From assembly GCA_947627115.1 (NCBI GenBank), contig CANQUQ010000001.1, positions 1-64,000 on the forward strand: a DNA stretch of 64,000 nucleotides, written 5' to 3'. The position numbers were made by a program, and so were the translations under genes. This DNA comes from an uncultured Acetatifactor sp. (GTDB taxonomy: Bacteria > Bacillota > Clostridia > Lachnospirales > Lachnospiraceae). The notes under the pieces were generated by a model. It saw only the letters and a program-made list of their open reading frames with translations, made no database searches and had not been told where the DNA came from. Below, piece after piece: positions 32,690-61,772 of the stretch; position 1 is the stretch's first letter; every line of letters begins with the position of its first letter.

Positions 32690-34042
32690 CTATCCGATCG
32701 GACTTTCCTCCCCGTCCACAACGGTGATCCTGGAATCCATATCGTAGTACCCCACTGTATTTTTGTCTGAAATCACTGTAATATTCAAGGCATCATACAG
32801 TCTGTGGTACACCTGGAAGACATCCTTTTCAAAACCGGTAACGCCCATGGAAAGCAGGTAATCGCCGCCCTGAAGGCTCATTTTCTGCACAAACGTCACA
32901 TCCTTGACCTGACCCTCTTGTGCACTCTCCAGAAAAGCTTTTTCGATCATGGAATTGGTTCCCGTGATCTCTGTTCCCATTACATTCTTAAAAGAAAAAG
33001 CAAAGATGGGAGCCGGAATGTACCGGTGGAATTTCACCTTCATATGCAAGGTGAACTCGCTCCCCTTCATAATAGTCGTAGTGCGCACGCCCCGGTCGTC
33101 CGTCACATAGAACTCCGCTATCTCTGCGTACTTCGTACCGTATTCCAAAATGTCCGGATTGACGGCAGCATTCAACTCCCTGCCGGATTGGGAGCCCTCC
33201 GATGCCTTCTTTGCGGCAAGCTGCAGCTCCTGATCGTCGAGGAGATCCTCCCCGTTCTGAGTCCCGGCCGGCTCATACTGGCCCACCAGTACCCGCTTGT
33301 AGATATCTATCATTTCCTTGGGGCTTCCCTCTCCCAGAAGCACACCCTTGTTCAACAAAAATACTCTGTCGCAGTACTTGCTGATACTGCTGAGATCATG
33401 GCTCACGAACACAATGGTCTTGCCCATCTTTTTGAACTCTTCAAATTTGTGATAGCACTTTGCCTGAAAAAAGACATCGCCCACGGAAAGCGCCTCATCC
33501 ACGATCAGTATCTCCGGCTCAATATTGATGGCCACCGCAAAGGCAAGGCGCACGAACATACCGCTGGAGTATGTTTTCACCGGCTGATAAACATAATCTC
33601 CGATATCCGCAAATTCCAGAATCTCCGGAAGCTTTCTGTCGATCTCCTTTTCGGAAAATCCCATCATGGTACCGTTGAGATACACATTTTCAATTCCGTT
33701 GTACTCCTGATTAAAACCCGCACCCAGCTCCAGCAGCGCCGAAATCCGCCCGTTCACATGCACTTCCCCGGAGGTAGGGTGAAGCACGCCGGTAATGATC
33801 TTCAGGATCGTGGACTTGCCGGAGCCGTTGGTCCCGATAATACCTACGGTCTCGCCGCGGTCGACTCTCAGATTGACCCCCTTTAAGGCATAATGGGTCT
33901 TATGCTTTTGCTTTCGCCCCAGACCCAGCGCCTCCATCAACCGATCCTTGGGCCTGTCATACAATTTGTAGACCTTCTGAAGATCTTTCACCTCGATTGC
34001 AGGAATTTTCGTTTCCTGACCGCTCATCTGCTCCTGATCCAT
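32690..34042 (-). CDS. ABC transporter ATPase with C-terminal Wzt-like glycan-binding domain
   Basis: Energises export of a finished lipid-linked polysaccharide together with the permease encoded just upstream. The 450-residue protein has an ATPase domain (about 15-270; Walker A GTNGSGKS at 70-77, signature YSSGMFVRLAFA, Walker B ILIVDEALSVGD, H-loop FVSHD) of the polysaccharide/teichoic-acid exporter type, and a beta-rich extension (about 300-440) like the Wzt C-terminal domain that reads the capped end of the O-antigen. That domain implies cap-dependent export, in keeping with the methyltransferase-kinase encoded 34 bases downstream. Confidence 0.9.
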   Translation of the reverse strand: MDQEQMSGQETKIPAIEVKDLQKVYKLYDRPKDRLMEALGLGRKQKHKTHYALKGVNLRVDRGETVGIIGTNGSGKSTILKIITGVLHPTSGEVHVNGRISALLELGAGFNQEYNGIENVYLNGTMMGFSEKEIDRKLPEILEFADIGDYVYQPVKTYSSGMFVRLAFAVAINIEPEILIVDEALSVGDVFFQAKCYHKFEEFKKMGKTIVFVSHDLSSISKYCDRVFLLNKGVLLGEGSPKEMIDIYKRVLVGQYEPAGTQNGEDLLDDQELQLAAKKASEGSQSGRELNAAVNPDILEYGTKYAEIAEFYVTDDRGVRTTTIMKGSEFTLHMKVKFHRYIPAPIFAFSFKNVMGTEITGTNSMIEKAFLESAQEGQVKDVTFVQKMSLQGGDYLLSMGVTGFEKDVFQVYHRLYDALNITVISDKNTVGYYDMDSRITVVDGEESPIG

Positions 34043-34070
34043 ATATTATTACCCCTGTAAAAATTTTCCG

Positions 34071-35051
34071 TCAAAGTACATCCGCAAAATGTACCTTCAG
34101 CCTTTTGAACACAGCCGCCCCGATACCGAACAATACCACCGTGACGATCCAGAAATACATTGTGGAAAAGAAATCCTGGAAGAACCATTCGTGCCCGTAG
34201 ACAGCGCTGCGATAGCCGTTCACAATATATACCAGCGGATTCAGCTTCAATAGGAATGCCCATTTTGCGCTCACCGCCTCCAGATCCCAGAGGATCGGCG
34301 TTGCCCACATTCCAAGCTGCAGCGCAATGTTGATAATCTGAGACAGATCCCGAAAAAATACCACAATGGCACAGGTGCTGTAGCACAACGCCAGCACAAA
34401 AATAAAGAGACAGGCGCTGTAGTAAAAGATCTGCAGTGTGTACACCGTGGGATAATAACCGTAAATAGCCGCGACCACCAACAGGATGACAATAAAGAAG
34501 GCGTGTATGAAGGTGGCGGCAATGATTTTGATGATAGGCAGCACACTGATCTTAAAGACCACCTTTTTCACCAGATAGTTATATTCGAGCATGGCATTGG
34601 TCCCATTGTTCAGCGCCTCGCTGAAAAAGAACCAGGGCACAAGCCCCGCCGTGAGGAACAGTACAAAGGGAACATCCGCCGATCCCCTGCCGCCGGTCTT
34701 CATGATTACATCAAACACCACATAATACATTGCCACCGTTACCACGGGCTGGGCCATGGCCCACACCGCCCCCATATAAGAACCCGCATAGCGTTTCTTA
34801 AAGTCATTTTTCGCCAGCTTCCAGATCATGCGTCTGTTCTGGAAGAGTTCCACCGGCAGCGTCGTAAATTTTTCATACCCCTTGCTGAAAATAATACAGG
34901 AGACAAGGATCACCGCACAGGACAAGATCTTCTTGAGCATCTCCTCCCGCGGATCCGCAGCGGGGCCGGCCCGGTGCACAAGGATCGTCACCGCCATCAA
35001 CAGTCCCGCCAACGCAAATATAACAATTCCGCCTTTCTTGCTTATTTTCAT
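34071..35051 (-). CDS. ABC-2 polysaccharide export permease (Wzm/TagG-like)
   Basis: Membrane subunit paired with the Wzt-like ATPase. The 326-residue protein has two N-terminal hydrophobic segments, then the family block NRRMIWKLAKNDFKKRYAGS, GAVWAMAQPVVTVAMYYVVF and six helices, ending LNPLVYIVNGYRSAVYG as in Wzm and TagG. It is somewhat longer than usual (about 260-270) because of an extra N-terminal hairpin (residues about 8-55). The start is the ATG at MKISKKGG, eight bases after the rmlC stop; an upstream frame overlaps rmlC and is not needed. Confidence 0.9.
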   Translation of the reverse strand: MKISKKGGIVIFALAGLLMAVTILVHRAGPAADPREEMLKKILSCAVILVSCIIFSKGYEKFTTLPVELFQNRRMIWKLAKNDFKKRYAGSYMGAVWAMAQPVVTVAMYYVVFDVIMKTGGRGSADVPFVLFLTAGLVPWFFFSEALNNGTNAMLEYNYLVKKVVFKISVLPIIKIIAATFIHAFFIVILLVVAAIYGYYPTVYTLQIFYYSACLFIFVLALCYSTCAIVVFFRDLSQIINIALQLGMWATPILWDLEAVSAKWAFLLKLNPLVYIVNGYRSAVYGHEWFFQDFFSTMYFWIVTVVLFGIGAAVFKRLKVHFADVL

Positions 35052-35059
35052 TCCCGCCG

Positions 35060-35611
35060 TTACCTTTCCGTGCTTTTCAGTCCGCCCCACTTTGTATCCT
35101 TCTCCGAAAGGATCAGTTCCATCCCAGCCGGAATCGGCCACTCCACACCGATGTCCGGATCGTTGTAGATGATACCGCTCTCATCGCCCGGATGATAAAA
35201 GTCCGTACACTTATAACAGAATTCCGCGTAATCCGACAGCACCAGAAAACCGTGGGCAAAATTTTCGGGCACATAAAATTGTTTCCTGTTCTTTTCGGAC
35301 AGCAGAACGCCGTGCCACTTTCCGTAGGTAACCGATCCCGGCCGCAGATCCACCGCCACATCGTAGACCTCCCCGCGGATCACCCGCACCAGCTTTGCCT
35401 GGGGATGCTCGATCTGAAAGTGCAGTCCCCGAAGCACGCCCCGCTTAGATGCCGACTGATTGTCCTGAATGAACACATCGGATATTCCGGCTTCTCTGTA
35501 CGCCTCGTAGTGATATGACTCATAAAAATAGCCTCTCCCGTCTTCGAACACAGTGGGGGTAATAATCTTCAATCCCTCGATTTCACAGTTTTCTACAATG
35601 ATCTTGCCCAT
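35060..35611 (-). CDS. rmlC: dTDP-4-dehydrorhamnose 3,5-epimerase
   Basis: Third enzyme of dTDP-L-rhamnose synthesis. The 183-residue cupin shows VFEDGRGYFYESY, IQDNQSASKRGVLRGLHFQ (with the catalytic His), VRVIRGEVYDVAVDLR, FYVPENFAHGFLVLSD and the substrate region YKCTDFYHPGDESGI. Length is normal. It lies between a GH25 gene and the export permease in one operon with rmlA and rmlB. RmlD, the final reductase, is not in the window. Confidence 0.96.
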   Translation of the reverse strand: MGKIIVENCEIEGLKIITPTVFEDGRGYFYESYHYEAYREAGISDVFIQDNQSASKRGVLRGLHFQIEHPQAKLVRVIRGEVYDVAVDLRPGSVTYGKWHGVLLSEKNRKQFYVPENFAHGFLVLSDYAEFCYKCTDFYHPGDESGIIYNDPDIGVEWPIPAGMELILSEKDTKWGGLKSTER

Positions 35612-35634: not shown

Positions 35635-36915
35635 TTACTGTTCGATATAGCTGATATTCATGTCCACATTACCTGAAATTCCGTCAATCCTGCCCTTCGA
35701 GGTGTACTGCCACATCTGATAGTAGCCCTGATACAGGGGCGCGCTGCGGTATTCCGCAAGCCAGATGCAATATTTTTCCAGCCGGTCCGCATACAGATTA
35801 TTGTTATACCAGTGGCGGCTGGCATAGACTCCCGCGCGGTATCCGGCATTTTCCACAGTCCGGCAAAAGGCCTCACAGACCGCCGTCCTGGTCTCCACGT
35901 CCAGACCGTCTGCCCGACCTCCGTCCGATCCTTCCGTATCGATAAATATGGGATACTCAAGCTCATACTCCCGCACCAGACGCAGCACTGCGGACGCCTC
36001 CTCCACAGCTTCCACCTCGTTCACCGCCTGCGTAAAAAAGTATACCCCCACGGGCATACCGCTGGCGGCTGCGCCCTTCATATTGGCTTCAAAATACGGA
36101 TCCTCCACAAGGCTTCCCGTCACAGAACCTCTGTATCCCGCCCGCACGACAGCATATTGCACACCGGCATTCTTCACTTTGTCCCAGTCGATATCCCCGT
36201 TCCACTTGGAAACGTCAATACCGGTCCTTGCCGACCCCGCAGTGCTCTGAAGCTGCTTGATCTCTGTGCTGTCCGCATCGGACCGGGCCTCCGTCACCGC
36301 CGTATCCTCCGCGTCGGCATCGATCTCCTCCTCCGTTTTGATCAGGAGAGATATGTCGTCTATCGCAACATATTCCACCTTATCCTTGACCCGCACTCTG
36401 GTAGGATTATTGGGCACACGGTAACCCTCTGCGGGAAGCAGCTCCACATAATATTCCCCTGCCGTCAGATCTCCGATATATATGACGCCGTCCCTGTCCA
36501 GATCCCGATACTCTCCCAGCCCCTCAAGTTCGACCAGAAAACCTTCCCCGGCAACAGGTTCTCCGTCTGCATCCACAATCTGGATCCTCAGATCCTTCTC
36601 GACGGAGGTCACTACCAACGACAGTCTCGAAGCCGTGTCCTTAGCCGCCTCCAGGATCGGATTTATCTCAGGGTCAAAAAAAGTATTGTCCCGCAGAAAA
36701 GCCGAGAGATCATTCCCGATCTGTCCCGTGTCTGCCTGAGACTCTTCACCTGCCTCCGCCTGGTCCGGCGTCTGAGGAGACGCCGTGTTCTCCGTGAGAG
36801 AACGGTTGCCATCATTTCCCTCCAGAAGAGAATCAGCGTATATTACAAGCACGACGACCAGAAGCACCGCAGCCGCAGAGACTAAAATAGCCATCTTGCG
36901 TATCCTAGAGTCCAT
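35635..36915 (-). CDS. Membrane-anchored GH25 muramidase with prealbumin-like domain
   Basis: Probable 1,4-beta-N-acetylmuramidase acting on the cell wall. The 426-residue protein has an N-terminal membrane anchor (about 8-28), an acidic linker, a beta-sandwich domain (about 104-190) resembling SpaA/prealbumin-like domains, and a GH25 domain (about 231-426) with [11 protein letters not shown] (Asp234) and the catalytic IFIDTEG (Glu328). Its first 11 bases overlap the end of rmlA, so it is translated from the rhamnose operon. It is the shorter paralogue of the protein at 39054-41801. A wall-remodelling role during polysaccharide attachment is inferred. Confidence 0.9.
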
Positions 36916-37774
36916 TTGCCACCTCGACTAAATATTTCCCGTAATTCGTTTTCATAAGCGGCTCCGCCAGCTTCATCAACTGTTCCCGATCGATAAAGCC
37001 CCTCTTAAAAGCAATTTCCTCGATACAGGAGATATAAAGCCCCTGCCGTTTCTGGAAAGCCGCCACGAAATCGGAGGCATCCAGCAGAGCATCGTGATTC
37101 CCGGTATCCAGCCACGCGAATCCCCGTCCCAGAGTTTCCACATGAAGCGTTCCCCGCCGCAGATATTCATTGTTGACAGCAGTGATCTCCAGCTCTCCCC
37201 TGGCGGACGGTCTGACATTTTTTGAGATTTCAACGACCTCATTGTCATAAAAATACAGACCCGGCACCGCATAATTGCTCCTGGGATGCTCCGGCTTTTC
37301 CTCGATAGAGAGAGCCTTGCCGTTCTCGTCGAACTCCACCACCCCGTACTCTCTGGGATCACGCACATAGTATCCGAAGATGGTGGCTCCATGCTCTCTT
37401 GCGGCCGCTTCATGCAGCACTTTGGAAAAGCTCTGACCGTAAAAAATATTATCTCCGAGTATCAGTGCCACCCGGTCGGAGCCTATAAATTTTTCCCCGA
37501 TGAGAAAGGCTTCCGCCAGTCCTCTGGGATACTCCTGCTCCGCGTAGGACAGACTCATTCCCAGCTGACTTCCGTCACCCAAAAGCTCCTCGAACACCGG
37601 AAGATCCCTGACAGTGGATATGATCAGGATATCCCGGATACCTGCCAGCATCAGAATAGACAGCGGATAATAGATCATGGGTTTGTCGTAGATCGGCATG
37701 ATCTGTTTTGAGATGGCCTTTGTCAACGGATAGAGCCGGGTTCCCGAACCGCCTGCAAGAATAATACCTTTCAT
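36905..37774 (-). CDS. rmlA: Glucose-1-phosphate thymidylyltransferase
   Basis: First enzyme of dTDP-rhamnose synthesis, from glucose-1-phosphate and dTTP. The 289-residue protein begins [16 protein letters not shown], the family N-terminus, and contains [44 protein letters not shown] and [14 protein letters not shown]. An open frame extends 38 codons upstream without a ribosome binding site, so the conventional start is used. It overlaps the downstream GH25 gene by 11 bases and lies 114 bases after rmlB. Confidence 0.97.
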
Positions 37775-37888
37775 ATAAATACCGTACCTTTCTTCTGCCC
37801 GAAGCCCATACTTCAGATGCAGATCTATGTGCTGCACAACACACCGAATGGGAACGACATTCATCGTCCCCATCGTTGTTTCGTTCAT

Positions 37889-38971
37889 TTATTTTTCGTA
37901 CATCTCGGAGTAATATTTCTGATAGTCTCCGCTGGTCACATTGTTCATCCACTCCTCATGTTCAAAGAACCAGCAAATCGTCTTGCGGATGCCTTCCTTG
38001 AACATCGTCTCCGGCTCCCATCCGATCTCTTCCCTGATCTTATCCGGGCAAATGGCATACCGGCGGTCATGGCCCTTCCGATCCTCCACATAGGTGATCA
38101 GATCCTGATTCACATAGGCTTTTCTGGGATCGCCCTCCGGCAGCATTTCCTGCAGAGTATCCAATATGATACAGATGATCTCTATATTCTGTTTTTCGTT
38201 GTGCCCGCCAATGTTGTACGTCTCGAACAGTCTGCCCTTCTCCTGCACCATATCGATTGCCTTGGCATGGTCCTCCACGAACAGCCAGTCGCGCACGTTC
38301 TTACCGTCCCCGTATACCGGAAGCTTCTTCCCCTGCAGGGCATTGTTGATGATCAGCGGGATCAGCTTTTCCGGGAACTGATACGGTCCGTAGTTATTGG
38401 AGCAGTTGGTAATATTTGCGGGGAAACGGTAGGTATCCATGTAAGCCTTCACCAGCATGTCCGACGCCGCCTTGCTCGCCGAGTAGGGGCTGTGAGGGTC
38501 GTAGGGAGTCGTCTCGTAGAAAAAGGCATTGTCGTCCTCCGGCAGAGACCCGTACACCTCGTCGGTGGACACGTGGAGAAATTTCTTATCTGCCTTAAAG
38601 CTGCCGTCCGGCTGCTCCCACGCCGCCTTGGCGCAGTTCAGCATCACGGCGGTGCCCAGCACATTGGTCTGAACAAACACTTCCGGTGTGCGGATACTCC
38701 TGTCCACGTGACTCTCGGCCGCAAAATGCACCACTCTGTCAATATCGTTATCTGCAAATATCTTTGCGATCGCAGCTTTATCACAGATATCGGCTTTGAC
38801 GAAGGTATAATTGTCCCTGCCCTCTATATCCTTCAGATTCTCAGGGTTGCCGGCATAGGTCAGAGCATCCACATTGATAATGCGTATGCTGTCGCCGTAC
38901 TTCCGGAACATGTAATGGATATAGTTGGATCCGATAAAGCCGGCACCTCCGGTAACTAAATAGGTCCTCAT
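37889..38971 (-). CDS. rmlB: dTDP-glucose 4,6-dehydratase
   Basis: Makes dTDP-4-keto-6-deoxyglucose, the branch point for rhamnose and for amino sugars made by the WecE-like enzyme at 48145. The 360-residue short-chain dehydrogenase shows the NAD motif TGGAGFIGSNY, the family THR/SER region HVSTDEVYGSL, YSASKAASDMLV with catalytic Tyr and Lys, and NCSNNYGPYQFPEKLIPL. The ATG follows AAAGGAGAACAGG. It is slightly longer than many RmlB proteins, with a normal C-terminus. Confidence 0.97.
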   Translation of the reverse strand: MRTYLVTGGAGFIGSNYIHYMFRKYGDSIRIINVDALTYAGNPENLKDIEGRDNYTFVKADICDKAAIAKIFADNDIDRVVHFAAESHVDRSIRTPEVFVQTNVLGTAVMLNCAKAAWEQPDGSFKADKKFLHVSTDEVYGSLPEDDNAFFYETTPYDPHSPYSASKAASDMLVKAYMDTYRFPANITNCSNNYGPYQFPEKLIPLIINNALQGKKLPVYGDGKNVRDWLFVEDHAKAIDMVQEKGRLFETYNIGGHNEKQNIEIICIILDTLQEMLPEGDPRKAYVNQDLITYVEDRKGHDRRYAICPDKIREEIGWEPETMFKEGIRKTICWFFEHEEWMNNVTSGDYQKYYSEMYEK

Positions 38972-48144: not shown

Positions 48145-49281
48145 TTACGAGTAAAATTCTACTATCTTATCACAAATATAATCCACCTCGGACTGAGTGA
48201 GCCTGTAGTACATGGGCAGCCGTGCCAGGCGTTCACTCTCTCTGGTAGTATATCTGTCCTCACCGTGGAATCGGCCGAACCTTTTTCCCGCAGGCGCCGT
48301 GTGGAGAGGAATATAATGAAATACGGAAAGAATATTATGAGATTTCAGATAAGCAATAAAAGCGGTCCTTTCCTGTATATCCTTTGTCTTCACATAGAAC
48401 ATGTGAGCATTGTGGACGCAGCCGTCCGGAATAACGGGAAGCTCCAGCTTTCCGGCATCCTCCAGCGGCTTCAGCCTCTCATAATACCGGTTCCAAAGAG
48501 CAAGTCTGTCCTGATTGATCTCGTCCGCGATCTCCAGCTGCGCATACAGATAGGCCGCATTCAGGTCGCTGGGCAGGTAAGAGGATCCAAAGTTCACCCA
48601 AGTGTATTTGTCGATCTGGCCCCGGAAGAACTTGCTGCGATTCGTTCCCTTTTCCCGGATGATCTCCGCATTCTCCACATTTTTCTGATCCCTGATCAGC
48701 AGAGCGCCGCCCTCGCCCATACTGTAATTCTTGGTCTCGTGAAAGCTATAGCAGCCGTAATCTCCGATGGTGCCGAGGGCTTTCCCTTTGTAAGAGGACA
48801 TGATTCCCTGAGCGGCATCCTCGATCACGACCAGACCGTGCCGGTCCGCAATATCCATAATGGTGTCCATCTCGCACGCCACCCCGGCGTAATGCACGGG
48901 AACAATGGCCTTGGTCTTCTCTGTGACGGCATCCTCGATCAGCTTTTCGTCCAGATTCATGGTGTCAGGCCGAATATCCACAAATACCGGGACCGCACCG
49001 CGAAGCACAAAGGCATCCGCCGTAGACACAAAGGTATATGCCGGCATGATCACTTCATCGCCCGGTCCGATATCCGCAAGCAGAGCCGCAAGCTCCGTGG
49101 CGTGGGTACAGGAGGTGGTCAGGAGACATTTCGCAGTGCCGGTGCGCTCCTCGATCCATTCATTACACTTTTTTGTGTATGCGCCGTCACCGCAGATCTT
49201 CTGCATATCTATGCATTCCCTGATGTACTGCATGGACTTTTCCACGTAGGGAGGCACGTTAAAATTGATCATTTTATTCAT
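48145..49281 (-). CDS. dTDP-4-amino-4,6-dideoxygalactose transaminase (WecE-like)
   Basis: PLP-dependent DegT/DnrJ/EryC1 aminotransferase, 378 residues. It follows the WecE/RffA pattern closely: FNVPPYVEKSMQYIRE, SCTHATELAALL, PAYTFVSTADAF, DAAQGIMSSYKGKALG, catalytic Lys184 in FHETKNYSMGEGGAL, and the C-terminal HYIPLHTAPAGKRFGR. WecE uses the RmlB product dTDP-4-keto-6-deoxyglucose and glutamate to give dTDP-Fuc4N. An N-acetylating partner (WecD) is not seen. The polysaccharide may therefore carry a 4-amino-4,6-dideoxyhexose. Another C4 aminotransferase specificity is possible. Confidence 0.85.
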   Translation of the reverse strand: MNKMINFNVPPYVEKSMQYIRECIDMQKICGDGAYTKKCNEWIEERTGTAKCLLTTSCTHATELAALLADIGPGDEVIMPAYTFVSTADAFVLRGAVPVFVDIRPDTMNLDEKLIEDAVTEKTKAIVPVHYAGVACEMDTIMDIADRHGLVVIEDAAQGIMSSYKGKALGTIGDYGCYSFHETKNYSMGEGGALLIRDQKNVENAEIIREKGTNRSKFFRGQIDKYTWVNFGSSYLPSDLNAAYLYAQLEIADEINQDRLALWNRYYERLKPLEDAGKLELPVIPDGCVHNAHMFYVKTKDIQERTAFIAYLKSHNILSVFHYIPLHTAPAGKRFGRFHGEDRYTTRESERLARLPMYYRLTQSEVDYICDKIVEFYS

Positions 49282-52711: not shown

Positions 52712-53761
52712 TTATTCGCGCCGCTCACGGGATTGCGCCAGCGTCTGCAGGCGCCGGGCAATGCGCATGGCCCCCTGCCCATCCACCAGAGAACGCTGCC
52801 TTAGGCTGTAGGTGCGCCGCAGCTGTGCGTTGTTTCTCAGCAGGACAATATGATCGGCCACTTCTTTTATGAGCTTTTCTCCCTGCCGCAGATAATCGCC
52901 CCCATAGCAGACGATCTCACGGCGGCGAAAGCCTTCCACTATCTTTTGCTGATTGTCCACAAAAGAAAAGCAGACAATAGGAACGCCCACCGCACAGAGC
53001 TCATACATGGTAGTTCCCCCGGCAGTCACCGCAATATCACAGGACTGCATCAATTCTAACATGTTTGACACGCCGCTGTAAACTTGAACCTTGATATTGT
53101 TCTTCTCCAGATCGCGCAAATGTGTCAAATACCGGTTGTAAGCACCGCTGACCACACAGTATTCCAGATCCTCTGTACCCGGAAAATTCAGGACATATTC
53201 CAGGATCTTTCCCGCCAGATCATACTTATCGCTTCCTCCGGTGGTAATCAGGATCCGTTCTGCCCGATCTCTGACCTGGTAGGAAGCCTGCCCAAATTCC
53301 CGGCGCAAAGGCGCATATTCCGTGCCAAGCAAATATTCCTTTTCCGGAACGGACACCTCTCCCTGATAGAGGGAGGGCTCTGCAAAAATATTGTAATTGA
53401 CATGAAGCTCCGCAGGCATACCGCAGATGCCTGTGTCGTCCATATAACAGATCGGAATGTACTCACCTGCCCTGCGAAGATATGCCGCCGTCACATAATA
53501 ACTGTCCGCCAGGAGAACGCTCCGCTTCTCCTCTTTCAGAATGGGAATCAGCGTATCCAACTCCTCTTCCGGCCTCAGATAAGAACTCCCCAGCACCCTG
53601 TATTTCTGTTTTCTGCTTTCCAGAATCGGCACGGCAGAGTCGTCGGCTACCAAAAAGCATGACGGTTCTCCCAATTGCCTCAGCGCGTCGGCAACGGAGA
53701 GACATCTCATGATGTGCCCCGTTCCGATCTCCCTGCCGCCGTCTGCCCTGATCCAGATCAT
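52712..53761 (-). CDS. pseG: PseG-like UDP-sugar hydrolase of nonulosonic acid synthesis
   Basis: Removes UDP from UDP-2,4-diacylamino-2,4,6-trideoxy-L-altrose, the fourth step of pseudaminic acid synthesis. The 349-residue GT-B-fold protein begins IWIRADGGREIGTGHIMRCLSVADAL with catalytic His16 and has ITTGGSDKYDL, VTAGGTTMYELCAVGVP and FSFVDNQQ in the C-terminal half. Its start overlaps the stop of the synthase gene by four bases (ATGA), so the two are translationally coupled. The sugar could be a formyl variant, given the fused formyltransferase next door. Confidence 0.88.
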   Translation of the reverse strand: MIWIRADGGREIGTGHIMRCLSVADALRQLGEPSCFLVADDSAVPILESRKQKYRVLGSSYLRPEEELDTLIPILKEEKRSVLLADSYYVTAAYLRRAGEYIPICYMDDTGICGMPAELHVNYNIFAEPSLYQGEVSVPEKEYLLGTEYAPLRREFGQASYQVRDRAERILITTGGSDKYDLAGKILEYVLNFPGTEDLEYCVVSGAYNRYLTHLRDLEKNNIKVQVYSGVSNMLELMQSCDIAVTAGGTTMYELCAVGVPIVCFSFVDNQQKIVEGFRRREIVCYGGDYLRQGEKLIKEVADHIVLLRNNAQLRRTYSLRQRSLVDGQGAMRIARRLQTLAQSRERRE

Positions 53762-55431
53762 AGATTTTCACTGCCTTTCAGACGATTTTTGTAAGCCGCA
53801 ATATTGTCACTCCAGACAAAGGGATGTTTTTTTCGGATTTCCTCCAGTTCTGACATCGTGTGACAGGTGCCCGGACCAATCTGCTTTTGCGGGACGATCC
53901 GCCCGGCCTTGATATCTTCCCAGTTTTCCCGGAACAGCCGCATCATTTCCGCCAGCAGCTTGTCGTAAGTACTCTCAAAAGTTTCCCGCGCCTCGTCAAA
54001 TACCATTTCCCGGCGGCACAGAATATCCCCCGTATCCAATCCCTTCTCCATCTGATGGATCGTCACTCCCTTGGGCGTATCCTCCAAAAAACTGAAAAAA
54101 TTAGGAGCCGACCCGCGGTTATAGGGAAGCAGCGAAATGTGCAGATTAATGATTCGGCCCTTCAGTATTTCCAGGACATCCTCCGAAATCAGATGACGGT
54201 AATTAAAACTCACCACAAAAGAAGGCTGCAGCTGTTCTGCCATCTCCGCCGTCAATTTGTTCGTCAGTTTATATACCAACGGTTCTTTTGCCTTAAGCCA
54301 TTGGAATAATTCCTCAGTATTTTCATTGTTGGTCAAAAAAAGTACCGCGCCCTTTTTCAACACGTCAAAGGTGACAGGTTCGCCCCGCTTCAGTTCTCTG
54401 TCCGTCCTCAGTCCTAAGATATCTTTGAAATACTTTGGCTTCAGGCCATAGCCCGGACGGATGATACGGATATTTTCTTCCGTCATAGGTTCCCCTCTGG
54501 AAATATCCCTGACACAGAATACGGACCGCCGAAAGACCATGCTGCTCTCCTCCTGGGCACTTGCCCCGTAGGCAGGGACATCCACGGCCTTTTGGGCTGC
54601 TCTGACCTCGTCTGCCAGCGCACGGTATTCCTCAGGTGTCATAGAAAAAGATGCATCAGGATTTTCAATCTCACGGCTGAGGCAAAAATGCTTTTCGATG
54701 ATAGAGGCGCCCAGCGCCACCGCCGCCACGGAGCTCAGACTGCCCAGCGAATGATCTGACAGTCCCACAGGAATACCGAATCTTCGCTTCATGTCGCATA
54801 TTGTACTGAGATGCATATCCCTGGGATCGGCCGGGTATGCACTGGAGCACTTCAACAGCGCCAGCTGCCGGTTTCCGGCGGCATATACGGTCTCCACTGC
54901 CTCCCGGATCTCCTCAAGTGTCCCCATGCCCGTGGACATGATGATGGGTTTTCCCTTGGAAGCCACATATTCGATCAGAGGAAGGTCTATCATCTCAAAG
55001 GAAGCAATCTTATAAAACCGGAGCCCCAGCTCTTCCAGAAAGTCTACGGAAGTTCTGTCAAAGGGTGTGGACAGAAAGTCGATACCGACCTTATCCGCCT
55101 CCTCCTTCAGCCTTCCCTGCCATTCCCAGGGAGTGTAAGCTTTTCCGTACAGACGGTACAGATTCTCTCCCTCCCAGGTACCGTTCTTCACCTGGAAATA
55201 GGGATTGCTGCAGTCTATCGTCAATGTGTCCGGCGTATAAGTCTGTATCTTGATACAGTCCGCTCCGCTCTCCTTTGCGGCGTGGATGATCTCCTTGGCG
55301 CGCTCCAGGCTGCCTGCATGATTGGCAGACATCTCCGCGATCATATACACGGGACAGCCGTCTCCCACAGACCTGTCTCCGATTTGAATTCTGGATACTC
55401 TTTCTCCGCTGTCAGTCATTTTTTCTCTCAT
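53758..55431 (-). CDS. Pseudaminic acid synthase fused to an N-formyltransferase
   Basis: A 557-residue three-domain protein. Residues about 15-280 are the NeuB/PseI TIM barrel that condenses phosphoenolpyruvate with a 6-deoxy-hexosamine (MIAEMSANHAGSLERAKEII, STPFD, IIEKHFCLSREIENPDASFS). Residues about 300-360 are an antifreeze-like SAF domain (RRSVFCVRDISRGE). Residues about 362-550 are a formyltransferase of the methionyl-tRNA/UDP-sugar formyltransferase fold with its triad Asn429, His431 (NLHISLLPYNRG) and Asp467 (LDTGDIL). The natural reading is synthesis of an N-formylated nonulosonic acid. The fusion is not the usual PseI layout. An ATG four codons on is an alternative start. Confidence 0.87.
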   Translation of the reverse strand: MREKMTDSGERVSRIQIGDRSVGDGCPVYMIAEMSANHAGSLERAKEIIHAAKESGADCIKIQTYTPDTLTIDCSNPYFQVKNGTWEGENLYRLYGKAYTPWEWQGRLKEEADKVGIDFLSTPFDRTSVDFLEELGLRFYKIASFEMIDLPLIEYVASKGKPIIMSTGMGTLEEIREAVETVYAAGNRQLALLKCSSAYPADPRDMHLSTICDMKRRFGIPVGLSDHSLGSLSSVAAVALGASIIEKHFCLSREIENPDASFSMTPEEYRALADEVRAAQKAVDVPAYGASAQEESSMVFRRSVFCVRDISRGEPMTEENIRIIRPGYGLKPKYFKDILGLRTDRELKRGEPVTFDVLKKGAVLFLTNNENTEELFQWLKAKEPLVYKLTNKLTAEMAEQLQPSFVVSFNYRHLISEDVLEILKGRIINLHISLLPYNRGSAPNFFSFLEDTPKGVTIHQMEKGLDTGDILCRREMVFDEARETFESTYDKLLAEMMRLFRENWEDIKAGRIVPQKQIGPGTCHTMSELEEIRKKHPFVWSDNIAAYKNRLKGSENL

Positions 55432-55449: not shown

Positions 55450-56154
55450 CTAACGATTGCCGTTTTCTTTTTCCTTCAGGATCCGGTATTTCAGCTCTGC
55501 CAGTTCCCAGTCTTCCTCCGTATCTATGTCCTGGATCTCCGCCTCCGGCAGTACGAGGGGAACTGTCTTTTCCATGATCAATGCCTGCTGCCGTTCAAAG
55601 CCGGCCGTACTGAGACAGTAGAACTGTCCCACGTCGTGATAGAAGGGTTCCAGATCCTGAGATCTGGCGCTGCGGTATTGTGGCCATTTGAATTTCAGAT
55701 ACCCATCCTCCACCACTACGCCCCTCTGGGGCGGAAAACCGAACCGCACCACCGGAAGTACACTGTCCGCTTTCGTCTCTGCCAAAAGTTCCATGGCGGA
55801 TCTCAGACGCTCCGGCGTAATAAAGGGCGCCGTGGGGTAAATACAGCACACCGTTTCAAAATGCTCCCCCCGCTTTCCGTACTCTTGCAACACCTCCATC
55901 AGCACATCGCTGGTGGTGGCATAGTCATTGGCAGTCTTCTCACTTCTGAAAAACGGCACCTCTGCGCCGTACTGTCTCGCAATCCCGGCAATCTCCTCAT
56001 CGTCCGTGGACACCATCACCGTGTCGAACACACCGGATGCAATTGCCGCTTCTATGGAGTAGGCCAGAATCGGCTTCCCGCAAAATTCTTTTATATTTTT
56101 CCTTGGTATCCGTTTACTGCCTCCCCGTGCAGTGATGATCGCCGCCGTCTTCAT
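55450..56154 (-). CDS. pseF: CMP-pseudaminic acid (acylneuraminate) cytidylyltransferase
   Basis: Activates a nonulosonic acid with CTP to form the CMP-sugar. The 234-residue protein shows AAIITARGGSKRIPRKNIKEFCGKP, MVSTDDEEIAGIA, YPTAPFIT and the C-terminal DIDTEEDWELAELKY typical of NeuA/PseF. Length is normal. It is three bases downstream of a GT2 gene and 18 bases upstream of the synthase fusion. PseF rather than NeuA is chosen because of the PseG neighbour. Confidence 0.92.
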   Translation of the reverse strand: MKTAAIITARGGSKRIPRKNIKEFCGKPILAYSIEAAIASGVFDTVMVSTDDEEIAGIARQYGAEVPFFRSEKTANDYATTSDVLMEVLQEYGKRGEHFETVCCIYPTAPFITPERLRSAMELLAETKADSVLPVVRFGFPPQRGVVVEDGYLKFKWPQYRSARSQDLEPFYHDVGQFYCLSTAGFERQQALIMEKTVPLVLPEAEIQDIDTEEDWELAELKYRILKEKENGNR

Positions 56155-60677: not shown

Positions 60678-61772
60678 CTAAATCTGCTCATTCTGCCGGT
60701 GGATATCGGGATCTTCATATCGGTCCATAAAGTCCGGCCCCAGCCGCACTACCTCGTCGGCAAAGGTGATCCCCTTCATTTCCGTGAACACACCGACCAC
60801 CTTCCGAAAGTGCACTCCCGGAAAAAATCCCAGCATTTCCATGGGGACCGTGGCGTCGAACTGCGGATATTCGGGAAAAAGCTTTCGGTAATCCAGATCG
60901 TCTCTGGGATGGGGCTTCAGGAAGATCGTTCCCTCCGGCTCGTACATCCTGATGATGTCCCGGAAGATCTTTTCCCTCACGTCCAGAGTACACAGAGGGT
61001 CCGTCAGGATCAGAATCTTATCTCCCACCAGACTGCTCTCCTCAAGCTGCCGCTCCAAGGTCTCCTTATCCCTGACAAAAGCCCGCAGGATCAAATCTTT
61101 ATCCCGCCCGTCCAGCCTGTCCACCAGAGCCTGTCTGGGACATTCCACGTAATAAGGGCACGGGCGCTCTATGGAGGCAATGTCATTGACCTCCATATCG
61201 ATACAGTATTTCCCGTATCCGTTCTGCACAAAAATCAGATTCAGCCGCTTGGACAAAAAAGCTTTTAACCGAAAATGCCCGCGGTTGTCATACCTTGCCG
61301 CATCAAAATTCTTCAGACAGTTCAAGCCGTCTTCCAGGGCATGATAATAGATCCTGTTCTGATTCAGATAATAGCCGATGGGGTCAGAGTCGCAGTATAC
61401 GTAAACATTCCCGTATTCCCGAAAGTCGACCGGCAGAAAAGGCGCTTCCAGCTCGGCGTAGCGCTTTGTAAAACGCATCCTGTAATACAGATTGCCCAGA
61501 AAATTTCCGGTTCCTTTTCTCCACTTGGCAAGCTCCGGGAAAAAATCTTCCCGCTTCTCGTCAAACATATATACTTTTTGAAACAGTCCGGTACTCTCCA
61601 CTCTGTCGGCCAGATTTTCAAAATTCGTGGACATCGTAGACAGCACAAGCTCCGCCCGGCCCTGTTGTTCCTTCGGAAGGCTGAGCTCCTTTAAAAAGGT
61701 GACATATACATGATAGTAAGTGTGACACACATAAATGCGCGGTCTTTGGGGATCTTTCCTTCTTTTTCCCAT
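60678..61772 (-). CDS. GT52-like glycosyltransferase, candidate nonulosonate transferase
   Basis: A 364-residue soluble GT-B-like protein. It has IYVCHTYYHVYVT at the N-terminus, an EDG motif (HALEDGLN, 147-149) and an HP motif (FLKPHPRDDLDY, His288-Pro289), the pair of motifs shared by bacterial sialyltransferases of family GT52 and polysialyltransferase relatives. With the CMP-nonulosonate genes downstream in the same unit, it is the best candidate for transfer of the pseudaminic acid-like sugar. Family call is from motif pattern, not alignment. The ATG follows AGGGAAAG. It opens a promoter-led operon. Confidence 0.65.
   Translation of the reverse strand: MGKRRKDPQRPRIYVCHTYYHVYVTFLKELSLPKEQQGRAELVLSTMSTNFENLADRVESTGLFQKVYMFDEKREDFFPELAKWRKGTGNFLGNLYYRMRFTKRYAELEAPFLPVDFREYGNVYVYCDSDPIGYYLNQNRIYYHALEDGLNCLKNFDAARYDNRGHFRLKAFLSKRLNLIFVQNGYGKYCIDMEVNDIASIERPCPYYVECPRQALVDRLDGRDKDLILRAFVRDKETLERQLEESSLVGDKILILTDPLCTLDVREKIFRDIIRMYEPEGTIFLKPHPRDDLDYRKLFPEYPQFDATVPMEMLGFFPGVHFRKVVGVFTEMKGITFADEVVRLGPDFMDRYEDPDIHRQNEQI

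Follow-up and report, generated by a model that had tools for sequence, protein, structure and literature searches.

The window considered here is the whole of a 64,000-nucleotide stretch of DNA from an uncultured Acetatifactor sp. (contig CANQUQ010000001.1), and its subject is a minus-strand gene that joins a complete PseI, the pseudaminic acid synthase, to a complete formyltransferase of the PseJ type (Table 1). An earlier, sequence-only reading had seen a NeuB/PseI barrel, an SAF domain, and a complete formyltransferase in a single frame, and this holds. All of the Pfam domains score over their cut-offs, the C-terminal part giving a Formyl_trans_N match at residues 392-494 (63 bits), and the protein belongs to the PseI family TIGR03586 of NCBIfam, scoring 453 bits where the cut-off is 340. 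The plus strand across 53758-55431 is interrupted by stops, and the reading frame is that of the minus strand. Only a few residues lie between the end of PseI and the start of the formyltransferase. This almost linker-free joint falls at about the same place as the 4-base overlap of separate genes in three other loci (L077, L098, and L104).

Catalytic residues are conserved in both halves. Lys141, Glu146, His227, and His248 of the fusion align with K129, E134, H215, and H236 of meningococcal NeuB (1xuu), and Arg325, in the SAF domain, aligns with R314; we take these NeuB residues to be those of the active site. Across 47 aligned fused proteins, some of them just 60% identical to the window's, Glu146, His227, His248, and Arg325 are invariant, and Lys141 is nearly so. 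PseI condensation activity is predicted for the N-terminal half. In the C-terminal half, the residues presumed to carry out formyl transfer are Asn429, His431, and Asp466. The sequence-only reading named the first two correctly and placed the acid at position 467, which is a threonine. All three are invariant in the same alignment, as is the surrounding motif, which argues against a formyltransferase half that is catalytically dead and acts as a folate sensor or an assembly platform; we give that idea hardly any weight.

The tail is of the PseJ type, as evidenced by comparisons of both sequence and fold, in each of which PseJ is its nearest solved relative. In a comparison of the tail with solved structures, PseJ gives 122 bits, the F domain of LgrA 104-107 bits, and Fmt, ArnA, and other formyltransferases at most 55 bits. 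A Foldseek search aligns it to PseJ entries with TM scores of 0.87-0.89, at 2.0-2.2 Å and 36-37% identity. PseJ from Anoxybacillus kamchatkensis (6ci2, 6ci4, 6ci5, and 6edk), the closest solved formyltransferase in sequence and the first by fold, resembles the tail in its short catalytic domain and reportedly acts in a pseudaminic pathway. It is a stand-alone protein, whereas the homologous domain in the window is the C-terminal half of a PseI fusion. A generic Fmt, ArnA, or PurN tail was ruled out, since such matches score below PseJ and far under the family cut-offs (66 bits versus 201.5 for methionyl-tRNA formyltransferase and 66 versus 777 for ArnA). ArnA and LgrA do resemble the fusion in having formyltransferase domains joined to other enzymes, but the ArnA domain matches the tail at only 55 bits and is joined to a uridine diphosphate (UDP)-glucuronic acid oxidase, while the F domain of LgrA belongs to a peptide synthase. 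For the PseI half, the top Foldseek match is Campylobacter jejuni PseI (8h2c; TM score of 0.89 on the target), which shares the barrel and SAF domain at 42-44% identity to its chains and whose 349 residues stop where the formyltransferase starts in the fusion. An AlphaFold2 model of the whole protein contains both folds, with a mean per-residue confidence (pLDDT) of 85.8 and a predicted TM score (pTM) of 0.68; in it, the individual domains are well predicted and their mutual placement less so. Architecture, the family of each half, the conserved catalytic residues, and gene order can be read directly from sequence and fold.

The fusion is real and conserved. From the genome_contigs collection, we took the loci of the best 80 of 248 relatives of the formyltransferase domain; some of these stretches end inside the cluster, and absences there are weak evidence. 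In 29 of the 80 loci, the formyltransferase is fused to PseI, and 28 of those are titled Lachnospiraceae or Acetatifactor, the other (L056) being titled "uncultured bacterium." Moreover, the best 120 of 8000 scored proteins all share this three-domain Pfam architecture, with identities of 72-94%. An assembly artefact is ruled out by these 29 loci of other genomes and 120 proteins with the same architecture. In a tree of the formyltransferase loci made by a quick method, all 30 fused rows, the window's included, lie in one set of 32 with a support of 97. The remaining two rows are L123, which ends at a contig edge and is perhaps fused, and L078, which is unfused and has a long branch. Because of these two rows, the fusion label needs three changes on the tree, and the starred branches force two; the fusion probably had a single origin. 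A plasmid collection of 72,556 records gave 224 with a match to the protein, none over 80% of its length, and no fusion was seen there.

The other 51 of the 80 loci are unfused, and they extend to Deferribacterota, Ignavibacteriota, Aquificota, Campylobacterota, Bacteroidota, and Pseudomonadota. PseI lies within 200 bp of the formyltransferase in 28 of them, and the stretch holds at least one pse gene in 47. We also used a family sample of 299 genomes, two from the window's genus and the rest from 297 other genera, in which matches above 300 bits were counted as PseI and matches above 150 bits as the formyltransferase. The one in-frame fusion in this sample is the window's own. A PseJ-type domain is present in 6 of the 67 genomes with a PseI-like match; in G221, pseI and the formyltransferase are overlapping separate genes, and in G276 they are adjacent with a stop between.

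We propose, with a probability of roughly two in three, that the fusion is a two-enzyme protein of the CMP (cytidine monophosphate)-pseudaminic acid pathway that formylates a UDP-linked precursor and leads to 5-N-acetyl-7-N-formyl pseudaminic acid (Pse5Ac7Fo). From the sequence comparisons, we infer the substrate, the order of steps, the product, and any channelling as follows. The PseJ-type domain would take the formyl group of N10-formyl-tetrahydrofolate and attach it to the 4-amino group of UDP-4-amino-4,6-dideoxy-L-AltNAc, which PseB and PseC produce. PseG, encoded by the next gene, whose ATG overlaps the TGA of the fusion by 4 bases, would then strip the UDP. The PseI domain would condense the resulting 2-acetamido-4-formamido sugar with phosphoenolpyruvate to give Pse5Ac7Fo, which PseF, encoded 18 bases before the fusion gene, would activate with CMP. 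The formyl group would occupy the place of the acetyl group that PseH would add. What is new is the joining of the putative steps 3 and 5 on one chain, with step 4 in the overlapping gene behind; each half is already known.

Evidence for this order comes from the structures of PseJ. The title of 6ci4, which is incomplete, describes PseJ soaked with UDP-4-amino-4,6-dideoxy-L-A..., and that of 6edk describes PseJ with N10-formyl-tetrahydrofolate. Because the substrate in the former title is the PseC product, formylation most likely precedes PseG and PseI and gives Pse5Ac7Fo; the pathway order that places the PseC product before PseG and PseI is set out in the portion of PMC5109656 consulted. The sequence-only reading had instead coupled formylation to condensation or placed it just after. 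In that scheme, formylation inside the fused enzyme would act on the free diamino sugar or on the nonulosonate at its 7-amino group, and a direct hand-over is imaginable, as the domains share one chain with almost no linker. Nevertheless, the nearest characterised enzyme was soaked with a UDP-linked substrate, and unfused formyltransferase copies often adjoin PseI, the position of a GNAT acetyltransferase in other genomes. We therefore consider formylation at or after condensation very unlikely. The broader claim of the sequence-only reading, that the cell makes an N-formyl nonulosonate, fares better: N-formyl pseudaminic acid is the best reading of a formyltransferase half of the PseJ type.

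Table 1. Features of the window and of related loci. Positions are those of the window unless prefixed by a contig (C) or locus (L) handle.
Feature	Position	Strand	Remarks
pseI-pseJ-type fusion gene	53758..55431	minus	557 aa, stop codon included
NeuB barrel	54583..55290	minus	residues 48-283; Pfam NeuB, 288 bits, over cut-off
SAF domain	54358..54531	minus	residues 301-358; Pfam, 41 bits, over cut-off
PseJ-type formyltransferase	53761..54351	minus	residues 361-557, directly after SAF; Asn429, His431, Asp466
pseG (UDP-sugar hydrolase)	52712..53761	minus	TIGR03590, 184 bits vs cut-off 154
pseF (CMP transfer)	55450..56154	minus	TIGR03584, 292 bits vs cut-off 206
WecE-type transaminase (dTDP-4-amino-4,6-dideoxygalactose)	48145..49281	minus	TIGR02379, 638 bits vs cut-off 435
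RmlA	36905-37888	minus	over cut-off
RmlB	37889-38971	minus	over cut-off
RmlC	35060..35611	minus	over cut-off
TagH/Wzt-like ATPase and Wzm-like permease	32690..35141	minus	best matches, below cut-offs
GT52/polysialyltransferase-like protein	60678..61772	minus	PF07922, 38.6 bits vs cut-off 26.1
PseH-like GNAT gene	C1:64529-65122 (= L015:4530-5123)		ends 529 bases past window end
PseC	C1:67751-68875		outside window; over cut-off; 12.3 kb from fusion
PseB	C1:71554-72522		outside window; over cut-off; 16.1 kb from fusion
GNAT-formyltransferase proteins	L081:9488-10582, L093:9512-10588, L094:9524-10612, L095:9518-10579, L114:9434-10606		

PseB, PseC, PseG, PseI, and PseF are all encoded together with the PseJ-type domain, PseG and PseF inside the window. 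The cluster also holds RmlA, RmlB, RmlC, and WecE, so that a second 4-amino sugar, Fuc4N linked to deoxythymidine diphosphate (dTDP-Fuc4N), is expected; RmlA and RmlB would make dTDP-4-keto-6-deoxyglucose, the feedstock of WecE. The sequence-only reading had noted that PseH is absent from the window and suggested that formylation may replace its acetyl group. The absence is literally true and misleading, with a PseH-like GNAT gene just past the edge. Its match to the PseH profile (C1:64553-65023, 9.1 kb from the fusion) reaches about 81.6-81.8 bits against a cut-off of 93.1; other PseH matches across the genome are weak, at 34 and 21 bits. In view of this gene, the lack of a PseH in the cell, as first argued, was rejected. 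A formyl group in place of the PseH acetyl group remains the best reading, while the argument from a missing PseH is unsafe.

The question is therefore which sugar the GNAT serves. Should the GNAT act as the PseH of this cell, it would acetylate the pseudaminic precursor, and the fused domain would compete with it or would formylate another substrate, most likely the dTDP-4-amino-4,6-dideoxygalactose made by WecE, which is encoded inside the window. If WecE is instead the partner of the GNAT, the fused domain is left for the pseudaminic precursor. We compared these possibilities in two samples, the family genomes and 30 fused-lineage genomes, the latter comprising the window's own (G000) and those of the 29 fused loci.

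In the family genomes, an ortholog of the GNAT (E ≤ 1e-25) occurs in 34 of 299, as 35 copies. WecE lies within 3 kb of 23 of the 35 copies and PseI of none; within 10 kb, the counts are 26 and 5. Counting one copy per genome, 22 of 34 have WecE within 3 kb and 2 have PseC (G198 and G000); within 9 kb, these numbers are 25 and 3, respectively. PseC was sought inside these 34 neighbourhood stretches, which extend no more than about 9.7 kb to either side and are shorter where a contig ends, G235 and G277 being on contigs shorter than 4 kb. Moreover, in seven family genomes (G022, G135, G187, G196, G198, G208, and G290), of which G022 is of the same genus as the window's genome, the GNAT beside PseI is a different one and the ortholog is located elsewhere.

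In the fused lineage, the ortholog (above 110 bits) is present in 29 of the 30 genomes, and PseC and WecE are each over cut-off in 28; the two genomes in which WecE falls short are G320, with a fragment at a contig end, and G314. The exception for the GNAT, G314, has neither the ortholog nor WecE (distant WecE matches only), yet it keeps PseC (480 bits) and the fusion. In five genomes (G309, G317, G320, G321, and G327), 35-112 bp separate the GNAT from WecE, and in five more (G306, G319, G322, G324, and G325) the distance is 1.8-1.9 kb; PseC in all ten is located on a different contig, 30 kb or more away, or, in G306, below cut-off. All of these placements, together with the accompaniment of pse genes by the formyltransferase family in several phyla, argue against the GNAT as the cell's PseH. 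On the other side, the GNAT lies 1.0-2.7 kb from PseC in eight genomes: 2.7 kb in G000, where WecE is 15.3 kb away, about 1 kb in G301, G302, G305, and G318, and within the same range in G308, G312, and G313. PseC alone shares the contig of the GNAT in 3 of 29 genomes, WecE alone in 7, and neither in 4. In G303, the GNAT stands next to a third transaminase, below every named cut-off, and this placement was set aside as a clue to the substrate of the GNAT.

Several observations weigh against the proposed pathway. The identity of the tail to PseJ is just 36-37%, and the closest named family of the GNAT is PseH, though under the cut-off. In the fused lineage, 8 of 29 genomes have PseC within 3 kb of the GNAT and 10 have WecE; the contig of the GNAT carries both in 15, with PseC nearer in 12 (G000 included) and WecE nearer in 3. 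The ortholog also co-occurs equally with WecE and PseI across the family (31 of 34 each), so that mere presence does not decide its partner. Other points come from the unfused loci, which were searched with a profile built from 29 of 30 GNATs (one longer than 250 residues was dropped) at a low threshold of 15 bits. A GNAT lies within 1.2 kb of the formyltransferase in 15 of the 51; of the 20 whose stretch includes PseB, PseC, and PseI, 13 contain a GNAT as well. Furthermore, Pfam identifies five single proteins that combine a GNAT with a formyltransferase, in or near pse clusters. Because GNAT and formyltransferase occur in the same unfused loci and proteins, both activities can coexist, and formylation and acetylation can evidently share one pse cluster.

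The near-even placement of the GNAT in the fused lineage lowers our confidence in the proposed pathway, and a firm pairing of the GNAT with WecE rather than PseC was dropped (10 versus 8 of 29). We lean toward WecE as the old partner, with a shift toward PseC in the window's close kin, where the partner of the GNAT may have changed. With these points on both sides, we judge it unlikely that the GNAT is the cell's PseH and that the fused domain competes with it or acts on the WecE sugar.

Among the fused loci themselves, a GNAT lies within 1.2 kb in 1 of 29 (L049, score of 255), and it is an ortholog of the window's GNAT. In favour of the proposed pathway, 7 of the 20 unfused loci with PseB, PseC, and PseI lack a GNAT in the stretch; L109 and L115, two of the 7, are near copies of each other. 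Among the 68 PseI genes of the family, 4 (the fusion counted) have a formyltransferase within 1.2 kb, 21 have a GNAT, and 43 have neither; none of the 68 has both. Here, GNAT neighbours were taken from 65 places (matches of about 42 bits and up plus one of 30 bits, among the matches listed), and inspection by eye placed no weaker GNAT row among the matches listed closer than 1.2 kb to a PseI. Of the two PseI genes in G276, one stands next to a formyltransferase and the other next to a GNAT. The idea that GNAT and formyltransferase strictly exclude each other was considered for these 68 loci and rejected in view of the 15 unfused loci elsewhere.

Other fusions were encountered in the same loci. 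These comprise a PseG-formyltransferase fusion in Selenomonas infelix (L083:8981-10591), an ATP-grasp-formyltransferase fusion (L087:8945-10597), and a PseI-GNAT fusion in Schaedlerella arabinosiphila (L089:8464-10023). Two probable GNAT-PseG fusions directly follow PseI (L021:2522-4027 and L025:2569-4044).

Formyl pseudaminic acid occurs in Pseudomonas. In Halorubrum sp. PV6, the text consulted of PMC6137143 describes 5-N-formyl-legionaminic acid as inferred in the glycan, with a predicted N-formyltransferase gene nearby. That archaeon resembles the window in having such a gene in a nonulosonate cluster and differs from it in the sugar, legionaminic acid, in the 5-N position, and in the separate gene. 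Flagellin islands of Geobacillus are described, in the portion of PMC5109656 consulted, as having PseC, PseF, PseG, and PseI and no PseH, with fmt2 in both type III strains; there, the formyltransferase fmt2 is separate, and its target was left open by the authors. A limited literature search found no description of a PseI-formyltransferase fusion, which is weak evidence of novelty.

With the fusion as a marker, sequence by itself would predict whether a gut bacterium displays formyl- or acetyl-pseudaminic acid, a 14-Da difference that is checkable by mass spectrometry. The slot beside pseI holds an acetyltransferase in some genomes and a formyltransferase, free or fused, in others, so that gene order could be read as sugar chemistry. 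Of the 120 listed proteins, 3 carry a name given by their source, in each case plain "pseudaminic acid synthase," and these labels hide the formyl step. A more far-reaching idea is that a Lachnospiraceae lineage bears uniformly 7-N-formyl surface pseudaminic acid made by a channelling PseI-PseJ-PseG assembly, which we hold to be doubtful. If it were true, acylation in the pathway would rely on folate rather than acetyl-CoA, and the host would be exposed to a "formyl-sialic" epitope, of which we have encountered no description from these commensals.

Finally, the surroundings of the fusion suggest where the sugar might be placed. The TagH/Wzt-like and Wzm-like genes probably serve polysaccharide export, and the GT52-like protein is a candidate nonulosonate transferase. 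Four flagellin-like genes are present in the genome outside the window (C1:230143-230553, C1:252190-252600, C14:43957-44367, and C23:4058-4471), and flagellin is a possible second acceptor beside the polysaccharide, or both may be used. Beyond the window, a gene for an M56-type peptidase (L015:10042-11175) lies on the opposite strand between pseB and pseC.

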